Source: Bacteroidota bacterium (GTDB lineage Bacteria > Bacteroidota > Bacteroidia > Flavobacteriales > Flavobacteriaceae). From it: a stretch of 64,000 nucleotides of DNA. A model generated the notes under the pieces. The model did not search any database, was not told the DNA's origin, and saw only the letters and a program-made list of their open reading frames with translations. This document shows positions 40,409 through 64,000 of the stretch, one piece after another. The position numbers were made by a program, and so were the translations under genes. Location: NCBI GenBank assembly GCA_018829465.1, contig JAHJTN010000019.1:124001-188000 (forward strand). The letters are read 5' to 3'. Each line of letters begins with the position of its first letter. Position 1 is the stretch's first letter.

Positions 40409-41932
40409 CTAAAATTTCATTCCTAAAGTCAGTACAACATTGGTGTTGGTTATGTTCATGTTTGCTGTATCGGTCAAACCTGTGGTAAAAAGAGGGCGTT
40501 TGGCATCTCTTTCGGCTCGTTCGAAAGCGGCATCTATATTAAAAATACCAAAGTTGTAACCCACACCTAAAGAAAACGCATCGAGTTCGCCCAGCGTTTC
40601 GCCGTCTTTGTAAGGACTGTCTTCATATCGATATCCACCGCGCAAGCTCAAGCCTCCCATTCTGTATTCACCGCCAATTTTGTATGCGCTAGCGTCGGTG
40701 AGCAATTGGTCGATGGCTTGGTTTTGTTGACGGAAAAAGGGATCGTTTTCAGGGCTAAACTCCATATCAGAATAGTCTTTATAGCTGTAATCAAAACTCA
40801 ACAAACCCCGTTGACCGAACAGCAACGCCAAACTTCCTGTGAGTTTACCGGGTGTCCTGAGGCTGTATTCAGGAAAGAAATTTACAATGTTTGGACTGAT
40901 GTTTTCCAGTATTTGGTTTTCTCCTTCAGTCCTGAGCGTTCGAACAGATTGTACAAGCCTGTCTCTAATATCATACCAAGTGGGCGATTCGTAAGAAGCA
41001 CCAACACGAACATATTCGTTGACCTTGGCTATGGCACCTAACTGAAATGAAAAACCGTCTCCATCTGAACGCAAGTGATTTTCAAAACCGATTTGATTGA
41101 TAAAAGAGTCAGGATTGGTTGCCTCCTCAAAGAGAAATGTAGTCTGGGAATAATCTATGGAATGGAAGTTGAGGTTCAATCCCAGATAGAGCATATCTTT
41201 ATAAGCTGCTGCAAAATTGGCAGTAAATTTTCCGTTGTAGCCTGAAGATATGAACGAATACTCTTGAAAAACCGGTCCGGAACCCACGTTGCTCACATAC
41301 AAACTATTGTCCGGATTGTCCGGATTCAAAGGATCGATGACAAAAGATTGGAAACCCAGAAAAGCTTGTTGCGCACCAAAACCTTCCGTTTCTCCTAAAA
41401 ATTGAAATAAATCGTCTATAGATTCGCCTTCGCGAAGCGATAACAAATCCAGTGGCACACCATCGGCAAAGCTTAAAAAATAATTGTCGATTGAATTGTT
41501 GGTGTTGGTACCCGCTATAAAAATTTGGTTGTCAAAATTTGCTGTTGTTTCATAGTTAAAAGCAAGTGCTAATCTGGTCCAATCACTGCTGCCACCGGTT
41601 TCATTAAACACAAAAACGGTTCCCAACTGATTTAAATCAAAGCTGTTTTCTGAATCATTGGTAGCCGTCCCGAAAAAAACAGCATCGTTGTCCACGTCTA
41701 GGTTGGAAAGCGTAATGGCACCTTGACTTGCGTTAAAAATTGCTGATCCGGCCGGATTTACATTGATGGCAGACAAGTCGCCACCCACGGCACCGAAAGC
41801 ACCGCTCATGGCTCTGAAGCGAGCCGTCCCTGTAATTTCATCCATCGAAAACCGAAGCCCGTCTTGAATTTCCTGAGCTTTGAGTGCGGAAAAGAAAGTG
41901 ACACTCACCAAAAAAGTGTAAAGTAGTTTCAT
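40409..41932 (-). CDS. OmpP1/FadL/TodX-family outer-membrane transporter
   Basis: 507 residues from MKLLYTFLVSVTFFSALKAQ, a signal peptide; an in-frame TTG at 41956 is upstream inside the repeat. The N-terminal plug-type sequence GLRFSMDEITGTARFRAMSGAFGAVGGDLSAINVNPAGSAIF fits FadL-like hydrophobic-compound channels, followed by about 14 predicted strands and the C-terminal NVVLTLGMKF ending in Phe. Imports fatty acids or other hydrophobic compounds across the outer membrane. Its leader consists of a tandem ~90-bp structured repeat that includes the start codon region. Confidence 0.88.
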   Translation of the reverse strand: MKLLYTFLVSVTFFSALKAQEIQDGLRFSMDEITGTARFRAMSGAFGAVGGDLSAINVNPAGSAIFNASQGAITLSNLDVDNDAVFFGTATNDSENSFDLNQLGTVFVFNETGGSSDWTRLALAFNYETTANFDNQIFIAGTNTNNSIDNYFLSFADGVPLDLLSLREGESIDDLFQFLGETEGFGAQQAFLGFQSFVIDPLNPDNPDNSLYVSNVGSGPVFQEYSFISSGYNGKFTANFAAAYKDMLYLGLNLNFHSIDYSQTTFLFEEATNPDSFINQIGFENHLRSDGDGFSFQLGAIAKVNEYVRVGASYESPTWYDIRDRLVQSVRTLRTEGENQILENISPNIVNFFPEYSLRTPGKLTGSLALLFGQRGLLSFDYSYKDYSDMEFSPENDPFFRQQNQAIDQLLTDASAYKIGGEYRMGGLSLRGGYRYEDSPYKDGETLGELDAFSLGVGYNFGIFNIDAAFERAERDAKRPLFTTGLTDTANMNITNTNVVLTLGMKF

Positions 41933-42020
41933 CTGTTTATATTTATTGTTTTTCAAAGGTCAGATGGAACACCCTAGGATAATCATACTCCTGTGTGTCA
42001 ATCTTTTTATATGGGTGTTT
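41930..42020 (-). repeat. Structured leader repeat, unit 1 (91 bp)
   Basis: First unit of a tandem direct repeat directly upstream of the FadL-like gene; its end holds that gene's start codon within CAGATGAAA. Plus-strand arms CAGATGGAACACCC (41961-41974) and GGGTGTTTCATCTG (42013-42026) form a 14-bp stem with one G-T pair around 38 nt. On the gene's strand the loop contains AGGAG followed by ATG, and AGGA/TCCT can pair to close it. A 26-codon frame (41943-42023, minus strand) spans the unit; I do not call it a gene. Confidence 0.75.
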
Positions 42021-42110
42021 CATCTGTTTATATTTATTGTTTTTTAAAGGTCAGACGGAACGTCCTAGGATAATCATACTCCTGTGTGCAAAATTTTTGC
42101 ATGGGCGTTT
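42021..42110 (-). repeat. Structured leader repeat, unit 2 (90 bp)
   Basis: Second unit, highly similar to unit 1. Arms CAGACGGAACGTCC (42052-42065) and GGGCGTTTCATCTG (42103-42116). Relative to unit 1 one stem pair changes from A-T to G-C on both sides, a compensatory change, while other changes give one G-T wobble and one mismatch. One base is lost in the loop. Confidence 0.75.
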
Positions 42111-42129
42111 CATCTGTAAATATGTATTG
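42111..42129 (-). repeat. Structured leader repeat, partial third start
   Basis: CATCTG and the following A/T-rich segment recur (CATCTGTAAATATGTATTG), then similarity stops. The rest of the gap to 42313 is A/T-rich with no gene I can support; it contains two related stretches around CGATTTGAAGTTGTG and TCACGATTGGCAAACCAG but no clear terminator. Confidence 0.5.
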
Positions 42130-42313
42130 ATTTCTATTGATTTTGCCTCCACTGAGCTCAGCACAGAAATGGAATTCGCCAATCACGATTTGAAGTTGTG
42201 ATCCTGAAAACAAGATTTCTCAAACTCAAAAATGGAATAATTTAAATGATTCACGATTGGCAAACCAGCTGATATTTTTATCATATGGCTTTAGATAGCC
42301 AAATAAATCTGAT

Positions 42314-43669
42314 TTAGTTAGATCCACCTCTACCTCCACCTGAGGAACGTATGGCACCGCCACTTCGACCACCACCTCCGCCACCAGAACGGATGGCACC
42401 TCCACTACTTCTGCCGCCGCCACTTGATCGGATGGCACCTCCGCTACTTCTGCTTCCACCTGAGGAGCGAATTGCACCACCGCTACTTCTGCTTCCGCCT
42501 GTGGAGCGAACAGCACCGTTGCTTCCCCTGCTCCTGATTCCGGATGAAGAACGGGTAAGTACGCCGGTTCTACCACCTGTATATTCCGAACGACCTCGCG
42601 AGCCGTTACCGGAGCGGATATCTCCCGTTCCTCTAGATCTTAGTCTTCCGTTTACATCTCCTCGCGTACTGGTATTGACACGGCGGCTATAATAACCCGT
42701 GCTTCTGATATTACTAGTTGTTGAAACGGTTCCTCTACCGTTGGTTCCTCGCGTTCCCACTTGTGAACGTATTCTAGAATTTGAATTCCCATCGGCACTG
42801 ACTCTGTTTCTGTAGTACGAAGTATTTCTAACATCTGTAACACGTCTGCCGTTAGAATTTGTCACCGAACTTCCTCTTCGGGTCGTTGTTGTCCTTCCGT
42901 TGTTTTCTGACACCACACCGCGTGAACTGTTTACACGAGACACGCTACCTCTGCGACTGCTGTTGTAGGCAACATGACTGCGGCTGTGGCCAAAACCACC
43001 ACCATAGTAATATGGATTATAAGAATTATAAAAACCAAAGCCAAATCCTCCATATGCAAAACCAAATCCATATCTAGGATAACCATACCCATAACCGTAG
43101 TATGGGCGGGCATATCCATAATAAGGTCGGTATCCAAAACCATAGTCATAATATGGGTAGCCAAAGCCATAGCCGTAATAAGGATAGCCAAAACCTCCCC
43201 AATATCCTGCTCCATAACCGTAGAAAGGACTGTAATTGTTGTAATAGTTAATCACGACGGATTCTGTCTCATCACCCCATCCGCCATAGCCTTCACTGTA
43301 AGTATAAGATTCGCTACCAAAATTGAGGTTATCGCCATCAAAATTGGCAGAAGAATAGCCGTCTATATCTGTAAACACTTCAGGATTGGCCGTGGTATCT
43401 ACAGCGTTCATATTAATTCTGTATTGGTTTGACTTTTCAGCAAAGTAGTTTTTGTAAAAAGAACCGGAATCTTCACCCCCTTCACTGCGCTCTACAACCT
43501 TGGAAGGATAGGTATTAGTGGGTGTGTTGTACACAACAGGTTCTCCGTAAACGCCGTCTGAAACCCCTGCGTATTCATAAGTACCGCAAGCCGAAGCAAA
43601 CAAAAGACCCAAGGAAAGTACCCCATAGGTTTTGATAGATTTGAATGATACTTTAAGGAAATTTTTCAT
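42314..43669 (-). CDS. Low-complexity Gly/Tyr- and Arg/Ser/Gly-rich lipoprotein
   Basis: 451 residues. Lipoprotein signal with lipobox FASAC (Cys 28). The middle (about 150-240) is rich in Gly, Tyr, Phe and Pro (YPYYGYGFGYPYY-type), followed by a Ser/Arg/Asn region and a C-terminal stretch of four 12-15-residue units based on RSSGGAIRSSGGS. No catalytic domain. Similar proteins in flavobacterial genomes precede proS and are sometimes wrongly named after it. Likely surface-exposed and disordered; function unknown. Divergent from proS, 98 bp apart. Confidence 0.75.
   Translation of the reverse strand: MKNFLKVSFKSIKTYGVLSLGLLFASACGTYEYAGVSDGVYGEPVVYNTPTNTYPSKVVERSEGGEDSGSFYKNYFAEKSNQYRINMNAVDTTANPEVFTDIDGYSSANFDGDNLNFGSESYTYSEGYGGWGDETESVVINYYNNYSPFYGYGAGYWGGFGYPYYGYGFGYPYYDYGFGYRPYYGYARPYYGYGYGYPRYGFGFAYGGFGFGFYNSYNPYYYGGGFGHSRSHVAYNSSRRGSVSRVNSSRGVVSENNGRTTTTRRGSSVTNSNGRRVTDVRNTSYYRNRVSADGNSNSRIRSQVGTRGTNGRGTVSTTSNIRSTGYYSRRVNTSTRGDVNGRLRSRGTGDIRSGNGSRGRSEYTGGRTGVLTRSSSGIRSRGSNGAVRSTGGSRSSGGAIRSSGGSRSSGGAIRSSGGGRSSGGAIRSGGGGGGRSGGAIRSSGGGRGGSN
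42332..42490 (-). repeat. In-gene tandem repeat encoding RSSGGAIRSSGG units
   Basis: Four units of about 36-45 bp (13, 13, 15 and 12 codons) at the 3' end of the low-complexity lipoprotein gene. Such repeats can vary in copy number by slippage; all units are multiples of three so the frame is kept. Confidence 0.8.
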
Positions 43670-62972: not shown

Positions 62973-63941
62973 TTATGATGGCTTGCTTTTGATGTGATTT
63001 ACAATTTGTTTGGCGTGAATCCTCGAATTTTCAATAAACCATTTGTGCGTTTCCATTCCGCCGCAAATCACGCCAGCTAGGTAAAGTCCGGGTAGGTTGG
63101 TTTCCATGGTTTCCTCATTGTAAAAAGGTTTTCGGCTATCGTCTTCTGAAAGTTGAATACCGATCGATTCTAGAAATTCAAAATTGGGTTCATATCCGGT
63201 GAGTGCTAAAACATAATCGTTATCGAGCGTGACGCTACCATCCGGTGTTTGTATGCGAATAAAATTTTCTGTGATTTCTGCCACTTCACTGTTGAAATAC
63301 GCCTTGATGCTTCCTTCGGATATCCTGTTTTCTATATCGGGCTTTACCCAGTATTTTACACGCCTGCCGATACTGTCTCCTCTAACAATCATGGTGACAC
63401 GGGCGCCTTTGCGGTAACATTCCAAAGCCGCATCTACAGCGGAGTTGCTCGCTCCAATCACGGCTACATTTTGATGCGCATAAAAATGAGGATCCTTATA
63501 ATAATGTGCAACTTTTGGCAGGGATTCGCCCTTGACACCAATTTTGTTGGGAATGTCGTAAAAACCCGTGGCTATAATCACTTTACGGGCAAAATACACG
63601 TCCTTGGTGGTGATCACCTCAAAGACATCTGCTGTTTTTTCCACCTGTGTTACACCTTCAAAAAGATTGACGTGTAAGTTGTTGGATGAAACTATCCGAC
63701 GGTAATATTCCAAGGCTTCGTCTCGGTTGGGTTTCACTTCTTTGCTGATAAAAGGAATTTGGTCTATTTCCAGCAAATCTGACGAGGAGAAAAATCGCAT
63801 TTGCACAGGATAATTATAAATGGAATTGACCAAGCAGCCTTTTTCGATAATCAAATAATCGAGACCGTTTTTTTGGGCTTCCAAGCCACAGGCAATACCG
63901 ATTGGCCCGCAACCCACTATCAATACATCTAAAGGTTTCAT
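62973..63941 (-). CDS. ypdA: YpdA-like bacillithiol disulfide reductase / thioredoxin-reductase-like flavoprotein
   Basis: 322 residues. FAD-binding VLIVGCGPIGIACGLEA at the N-terminus, IEKGCLVNSIYNYP, an NADPH motif VAVIGASNSAVDAAL (about 160-174) and a C-terminal GLYLAGVICGGMETHKWFIE. The redox CxxC of thioredoxin reductases is missing, as in YpdA, which reduces oxidised bacillithiol. The DinB-like protein at 6095 could belong to the same thiol system. Its upstream region starts with the ~90-bp leader repeat also found before the FadL-like gene. Confidence 0.85.
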   Translation of the reverse strand: MKPLDVLIVGCGPIGIACGLEAQKNGLDYLIIEKGCLVNSIYNYPVQMRFFSSSDLLEIDQIPFISKEVKPNRDEALEYYRRIVSSNNLHVNLFEGVTQVEKTADVFEVITTKDVYFARKVIIATGFYDIPNKIGVKGESLPKVAHYYKDPHFYAHQNVAVIGASNSAVDAALECYRKGARVTMIVRGDSIGRRVKYWVKPDIENRISEGSIKAYFNSEVAEITENFIRIQTPDGSVTLDNDYVLALTGYEPNFEFLESIGIQLSEDDSRKPFYNEETMETNLPGLYLAGVICGGMETHKWFIENSRIHAKQIVNHIKSKPS

Positions 63942-64000
63942 CTGTATATATTATTTATTTTTATCGGTCAGATGGAACACCCTAGGATAATTATGTCCCT
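63939..64000 (-). repeat. Structured leader repeat, third copy (cut by window edge)
   Basis: CATCTG at the YpdA start codon, an A/T-rich spacer, then CAGATGGAACACCC (63969-63982) and TAGGATAAT as in the units at 41930-42110. The arm is identical to unit 1; the other arm must lie beyond base 64000. Confidence 0.7.

Follow-up and report, generated by a model that had tools for sequence, protein, structure and literature searches.

The array upstream of the FadL-like gene

The window, by which we mean the whole 64,000-nucleotide stretch of DNA analysed, contains on its minus strand a gene (40409..41932) encoding a FadL/OmpP1-like outer membrane protein of 507 aa (PF03349, 40.6 bits), whose start is supplied by the repeat that precedes it. 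TRF placed a tandem array at 41926-42133 (period 91, 2.3 copies, 88% matches), and a repeat search of the window gave unit starts 91 and 90 nt apart, with a pair of 82 nt showing 90% identity. This confirms the tandem repetition described in an earlier note on this DNA, which gave slightly more than two units of some 90 bp each. The array lies entirely on the minus strand and points toward the FadL-like gene (ATG at 41932), every unit opens with ATGAAA, and the final ATGAAA is the start of that gene.

Measured from ATGAAA to ATGAAA, the gene-proximal unit (unit 2) occupies 41927..42023 on the minus strand (covariance model R1, 107.7 bits, E 1e-17), and the gene-distal one (unit 1), delimited by the repeat search and by comparison with other copies, occupies 42018..42113 on the same strand. 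The ATGAAA that begins unit 1 (42108..42113, minus strand) was placed by direct reading and by orthologous empty sites. On its 5' side the DNA has the look of a decayed, older unit and not of native DNA: the segment 42114..42174 (minus strand), read directly against intact relatives, is probably the 3' half of such a unit, running from 42174 to 42114 as TTCCATTTCTGTGCTGAGCTCAGTGGAGGC...TTTACAG and representing a variant with a nested GTGCTGAGC..CAGT palindrome. Counting this remnant, the array probably consists of three units.

Unit 2 folds into a stem (CAGATGAAACACCC/GGGTGTTCCATCTG) in which 13 of the 14 positions are paired. The stem covariation analysis delimits its left arm CACCC at 42013..42017 and its right arm GGGTG at 41970..41974 (both minus strand). 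Next to the right arm is a guide-like arm, TTCCATCTG (41961..41969, minus strand), invariant or covarying in 41 aligned units, which can pair on the left with ATGAAA and on the right with the 3' end of the element, CAGATGAAA (41927..41935, minus strand). This 3' end, which pairs with the CATCTG of the arm, contains the ATGAAA that serves as start codon and second codon of the fadL-like gene. The 14-bp stem reported for each unit thus holds almost completely for unit 2, whereas unit 1 has a broken pair (GGACG vs CGCCC); the reported change from A-T to G-C on both arms is present in unit 1 beside it. With one compensated and one broken pair, the two copies alone are insufficient to prove covariation.

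Further upstream in the window a gene for a Ser/Gly/Arg-rich protein was found (42314-43669, minus strand); tandem repeats of 39 bp lie close to its 3' end, and a gene end like this one is located upstream of fadL orthologues in several relatives.

Structure of the unit

The array is one member of a dispersed repeat family. Its units comprise 82-86 nt plus a shared ATGAAA and follow the layout ATGAAA-CGCCC...GGGCG-TTCCATSTGACC, a hairpin, followed by an A-rich tail that ends in CASATGAAA. Alignment of 41 units drawn from the whole phylum showed little or no variation in the left ATGAAA, in most of the arm (consensus TTCCATSTGACC) or in the right end ACASATGAAA. The parts in between are a stem of 5-6 bp, a loop in which ACACA..GG.ATGATTAT is conserved, and the A-rich tail. 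The ends of the element are direct copies of ATGAAA, and terminal inverted repeats are absent.

The earlier note had taken the repeat to be a structured one whose fold matters, and covariation in both the stem and the CATSTG/CASATG pairing bears this out. Changes on both sides were observed at all five stem pairs. Pairing was found in 91.2% of stem cells; shuffles gave 81.3%, and sliding of the arms no more than 49%. The covariation score was 0.256 against 0.092 in shuffles, none of the 500 shuffles reaching the observed value. Stem positions 2-4 form standard pairs in 57 of 96 units and a tandem G.A/A.G step in 29 of 96. As regards the arm, its CATSTG corresponds to the CASATG at the downstream end of the same element in 39 of 40 units outside the genome of the window (20 are of one type and 19 of the other), while the three bases preceding the left ATGAAA do not track it. 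The constrained partner is therefore the element's own right end and not the upstream CAG that had been taken as partner before.

Copies in the genome and their position at gene starts

The genome to which the window belongs contains at least 73 arrays and at least 126 units; these counts are lower bounds, as they were parsed from stretches around copies (73 arrays, 126 right ends). A BLAST search with the array gave at least 55 matches in this genome (the best 40 of 156 candidates were scored). Exact occurrences of the 15-mer TATAAACAGATGAAA there number 80; with two mismatches or fewer allowed the count is 214, compared with 28 for a reversed control. A second family copy lies in the window itself at 63936..64000 on the minus strand, cut by the window edge (R1, 54.5 bits, E 1.1e-7), and sits at the start of a 322-aa ORF. 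The original observation is thus real and larger than was stated. Several contigs of this assembly (at L055, L069 and L075) end inside arrays, which indicates that the repeats break short-read assemblies.

The fusion of the repeat to a gene start is true here and general: in 62 of the 73 arrays an ORF of 100 aa or longer begins at the terminal ATGAAA. The other 11 include two arrays truncated by contig ends, one that is followed by a further degenerate unit ending at a 345-aa ORF, one that opens a 98-aa ORF and one located 5 nt ahead of the true start of a SufC-like gene (ATGAAATGCTACAA); the remainder are intergenic or doubtful. The genes downstream of the copies examined (fadL, trpF, leuB and the SufC-like gene) have no common function.

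In 418 kb of the same genome, with elements masked, ATGAAA was found 383 times within genes, 48 times at starts and 48 times in intergenic DNA. Against the 48:48 of starts and intergenic sites, a working count of complete arrays, partly dependent on judgement calls, gave about 65 at starts and about 6 elsewhere (odds ratio 10.8, P = 5e-9), so that start codons are over-represented about 11-fold relative to intergenic ATGAAA. Insertions inside genes would be lost, and the missing within-gene insertions are expected on that account. Such loss alone does not obviously account for the surplus of starts relative to intergenic sites, which may reflect selection, a context preference or true targeting. 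The SufC-like start was struck 5 nt off (ATGAAATGCTAC), which indicates that the target is the hexamer rather than the start.

As ATGAAA is common to gene and element, the protein keeps its first codons when an insertion falls on a start codon, and such insertions would be tolerated since the element reconstitutes the start codon. The start codon carried by the element, together with its A-rich upstream region, would let insertions at starts persist. In Flavobacterium johnsoniae, A at positions -6 and -12 is favourable for initiation, and the C that the element has at -3 is not (PMC6847099).

Mobility of the element

Copies of the repeat are dispersed and have moved recently. In genome G008, 11 copies identical over 97 nt occupy unrelated loci; in those whose flanks were read, ATGAAA marks the precise limit of identity at either end, and nothing else obvious is common to the flanks. 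At one locus of the family (L027) a unit interrupts an open frame, and when the unit is taken out and its flanks are fused across the repeated ATGAAA, an intact M20 peptidase, identified by PF01546 and PF07687, is restored. At another (L036) the unit lies four codons before the end of a different gene. Empty sites exist for the fadL locus itself, since all 10 fadL orthologues read in relatives have no element. Most of them start with ATGAAA, and two belong to congeners at 73-74% identity that also have a similar Ser/Gly-rich gene end upstream. Identical copies at unrelated sites, precise junctions and empty sites, by which a mobile element is recognised, were thus all found, and we consider it very probable that in Bacteroidota the repeat acts as a mobile DNA element, about 90 nt long and non-autonomous, with ATGAAA as its specific insertion site and ATGAAA also at its own end.

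The earlier note had proposed that the unit duplicated together with the translation start. This holds in part, as 13 of 41 array units have their neighbour as best or tied-best match in the genome, and fails for the 28 that have a better match elsewhere and reflect dispersed copies inserted at ATGAAA. Arrays therefore form both by local duplication and by new insertion into the regenerated ATGAAA. The neighbour-matched units would also suit tandem duplication of the gene leader by replication slippage without any mobility; as a full explanation this is refuted by the identical copies at unrelated loci of G008, the dispersed copies, the interrupted gene and the empty sites, and we give it practically no credence.

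As to mechanism, pairing within the unit and analogy with known systems suggest that the moving form would be a single-stranded hairpin whose arm TTCCATSTG would act as a guide, pairing with the left ATGAAA and with the CASATGAAA end of the element, and that transposition would occur in trans in the manner of IS200/IS605 or REP elements. The ends CASATG and ATGAAA would then be the cleavage sites. A more far-reaching proposal is that the element, spread phylum-wide, is specialised for gene starts: guide pairing within a folded single strand would lead it to ATGAAA, it would restore the start at no cost to the host, its mover would be some enzyme outside the known Y1 transposases, and it would truly prefer starts over other ATGAAA; taken as a whole we regard this as tentative and rather doubtful.

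Regulatory and coding readings

The earlier note had named a cis-acting RNA as one of two readings. Such an RNA could be a regulatory leader in which the CATSTG arm would mask the start codon and the left ATG would open a short upstream ORF. The element is indeed nearly always sense-oriented and directly ahead of a gene, the arm is able to pair with CASATGAAA, and the left ATGAAA opens short frames of 15-30 aa. However, predicted pairing of the start region behind the element (0.49) is practically that of control starts (0.47, P = 0.61), and the predicted probability of in-register arm pairing averages only 0.24. Effects on expression are possible, but by this measure start-codon masking is not what keeps the pairing conserved. 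The downstream genes examined share no function, copies also occur inside genes and at intergenic sites, 128 of the 199 genera sampled gave no match, and the element matches no Rfam family: Rfam covariance models, that of the Flavo-1 motif included, gave no gathering match near the array and nothing relevant at relaxed E-values. A riboregulator that masks the start codon is not supported, and a regulatory leader of any such kind seems to us quite improbable.

The length of the short frame is not conserved between copies, which indicates that it is not coding, and the short peptide (MKHPYKKIDTQEYDYPR..) was rejected as a product on this ground. The AGGAG-ATG in the loop, which according to the earlier note a small inner hairpin could hide, belongs to no conserved reading frame, and Bacteroidota do not use Shine-Dalgarno sequences (PMC6847099).

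Distribution in Bacteroidota

With the covariance model the family was found in 71 of 199 genera sampled from the Flavobacteriaceae, the taxonomic family of the window, and the other 128 gave no match. Further copies in the genome and its relatives, which the earlier note had proposed to look for, were thus found. The matches listed in a pattern scan of named genomes include Algoriphagus, Cyclobacterium, Lunatibacter, Chryseobacterium, Winogradskyella, Kordia and Labilibacter, as well as Saprospiraceae, Bacteroidales and a Prevotellaceae MAG, and judged by these matches the distribution of the family is phylum-wide in Bacteroidota. Copy number varies sharply among relatives, from 0 to more than 20. 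Phages, plasmids and viral contigs gave no match to the element at the settings used.

Candidate mobilising enzymes

A search for the families PF01797, PF00078 and PF01867 found no mobilising enzyme for the element. Reverse transcriptase (PF00078) and Cas1 (PF01867) are both absent from G008, the genome with the identical copies, and a retroelement or a Cas1-driven element was rejected on this ground.

The element could be an ordinary REP/BIME- or PATE-type repeat that depends for its movement on a Y1 (HUH) transposase resident in the genome, either from the IS200/IS605 class or from the RAYT class. In agreement with this, a short guide in its hairpin pairs with each of the two cleavage-like sites, its target is short and fixed, terminal inverted repeats are absent, Y1 proteins exist in many genomes (PF01797 is present in 12 of 22 element-rich genomes, and the genome of the window and G008 both have a Y1 transposase), and Bacteroidota RAYTs with atypical flanking structures have been described (PMC6006769). 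Against it, PF01797 has no match in the other 10 element-rich genomes, complete ones included. The only Y1 protein found in the genome of the window is a RAYT flanked by different palindromes (AGACCTCACAGG), and it was rejected as the mover for this reason. The IS200 of G008 was rejected likewise, as the groups compared have ends other than those of the element. Among 47 Y1 loci none is flanked by the element; it occurs nearby at a single one, where it stands at the start of the neighbouring gene, trpF. We consider a resident Y1 mover a serious possibility, though on balance not a probable one. At the locus just mentioned (L103:1474-2025, contig C36 of the genome of the window) a RAYT-like Y1 gene lies between trpF and trpB, flanked by AGACCTCACAGGTTTTCAAAACCTGTGAGGTCT palindromes, and the ATGAAA element itself stands at the start of trpF within this operon.

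No autonomous copy was seen among the copies and Y1 loci examined. One candidate, L110 in genome G001, proved to be an IS200-like gene beside a decayed element, and the half-copies in G008, considered as possible remnants of an autonomous element, contain no gene and are decayed copies located at gene starts.

Circular integration by a tyrosine or serine recombinase, with ATGAAA as crossover core as in cassette arrays, would account for the direct repeats of the core on both sides, for the precise junctions and for the tandem arrays. A duplex circle of 91 bp is however very small, the conserved pairing inside the element would go unexplained unless the substrate were a folded single strand, and no candidate integrase is linked to the element; we find this mechanism improbable.

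Comparison with known elements

The palindrome-associated elements derived from IS200/IS605 (PATEs) and the REP/BIME elements that accompany TnpA_REP (RAYT) resemble the element in being short, non-autonomous, hairpin-forming and present in high copy number, without terminal inverted repeats and with a fixed short target and guide-like pairing to cleavage-like sites. Unlike these, the ATGAAA element has a target that regenerates a start codon, shows a strong excess at starts and has a 90-nt body conserved phylum-wide, while its ends differ from those of the IS200 elements tested and Y1 proteins are often absent. REP/RAYT systems are defined by a cognate TnpA_REP gene with copies of the repeat on its flanks; none was found among the 47 Y1 loci, nor is there the GTAG- or CGTC-tagged palindrome of 20-40 nt: the unit is of 90 nt and has no conserved tag at the foot of the hairpin (alignment A1). 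With PATEs the element shares a subterminal hairpin with guide pairing, in which arm and end (39 of 40) and stem covary; it does not share its ends with a TnpA-bearing IS of the same genome, as far as the IS200 groups of G008 that were compared are concerned.

MITEs and other small mobile repeats are likewise non-autonomous, about 100 nt long, dispersed and near genes. MITEs of the DDE type have terminal inverted repeats, whereas the element ends in direct ATGAAA copies, is specific for a hexamer and has a direct repeat that is always ATGAAA. HEARO and IscB elements have been reported adjoining ATGA/GTGA sites; the element differs from them in having no coding part, in being much shorter and in giving no match to the HEARO model. 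The Flavo-1 RNA motif (RF01705), a repeated structured motif widespread in Flavobacteriaceae and found in some 5' regions (PMC9723704), is similar in these general features, but its covariance model matches no element copy tested, and it occurs in sense and antisense whereas the ATGAAA element is in sense at starts.

In the open papers to which the literature search was confined, no description of a start-codon-targeting repeat in Bacteroidota was found, and as far as this literature and Rfam show the element is a previously undescribed variant among small non-autonomous mobile elements. Targeting a start codon and then restoring it is an uncommon means by which a genetic parasite avoids harm to its host. 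The translation initiation regions of dozens of genes, trpF and the fadL-like gene included, have been swapped at once, and lineage-specific 5' leaders in Bacteroidota could be explained by the element. Moreover, it breaks genome assemblies, several contig ends lying within arrays, and it points to a mobilising enzyme so far linked to no repeat of this sort.

Variant units

In many copies a second small palindrome is nested in the arm, always at the same point (CAT|TCCTGTGCTGAGCGCAGTCGAAG|CATGACC), giving units of 106-108 nt; we observed it at L042:2113, L047:9223, L083:2098, L329 and L023, and it recurs in other genera. A third motif, CACTTGTATTGAGCGAAGTCGAAATAAATAA, substitutes for part of the A-rich tail at L040:1942, L058:10244 and L091:1955. 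The copy at L330 has lost its right stem arm through an internal deletion, yet it sits exactly at an ATGAAA gene start.
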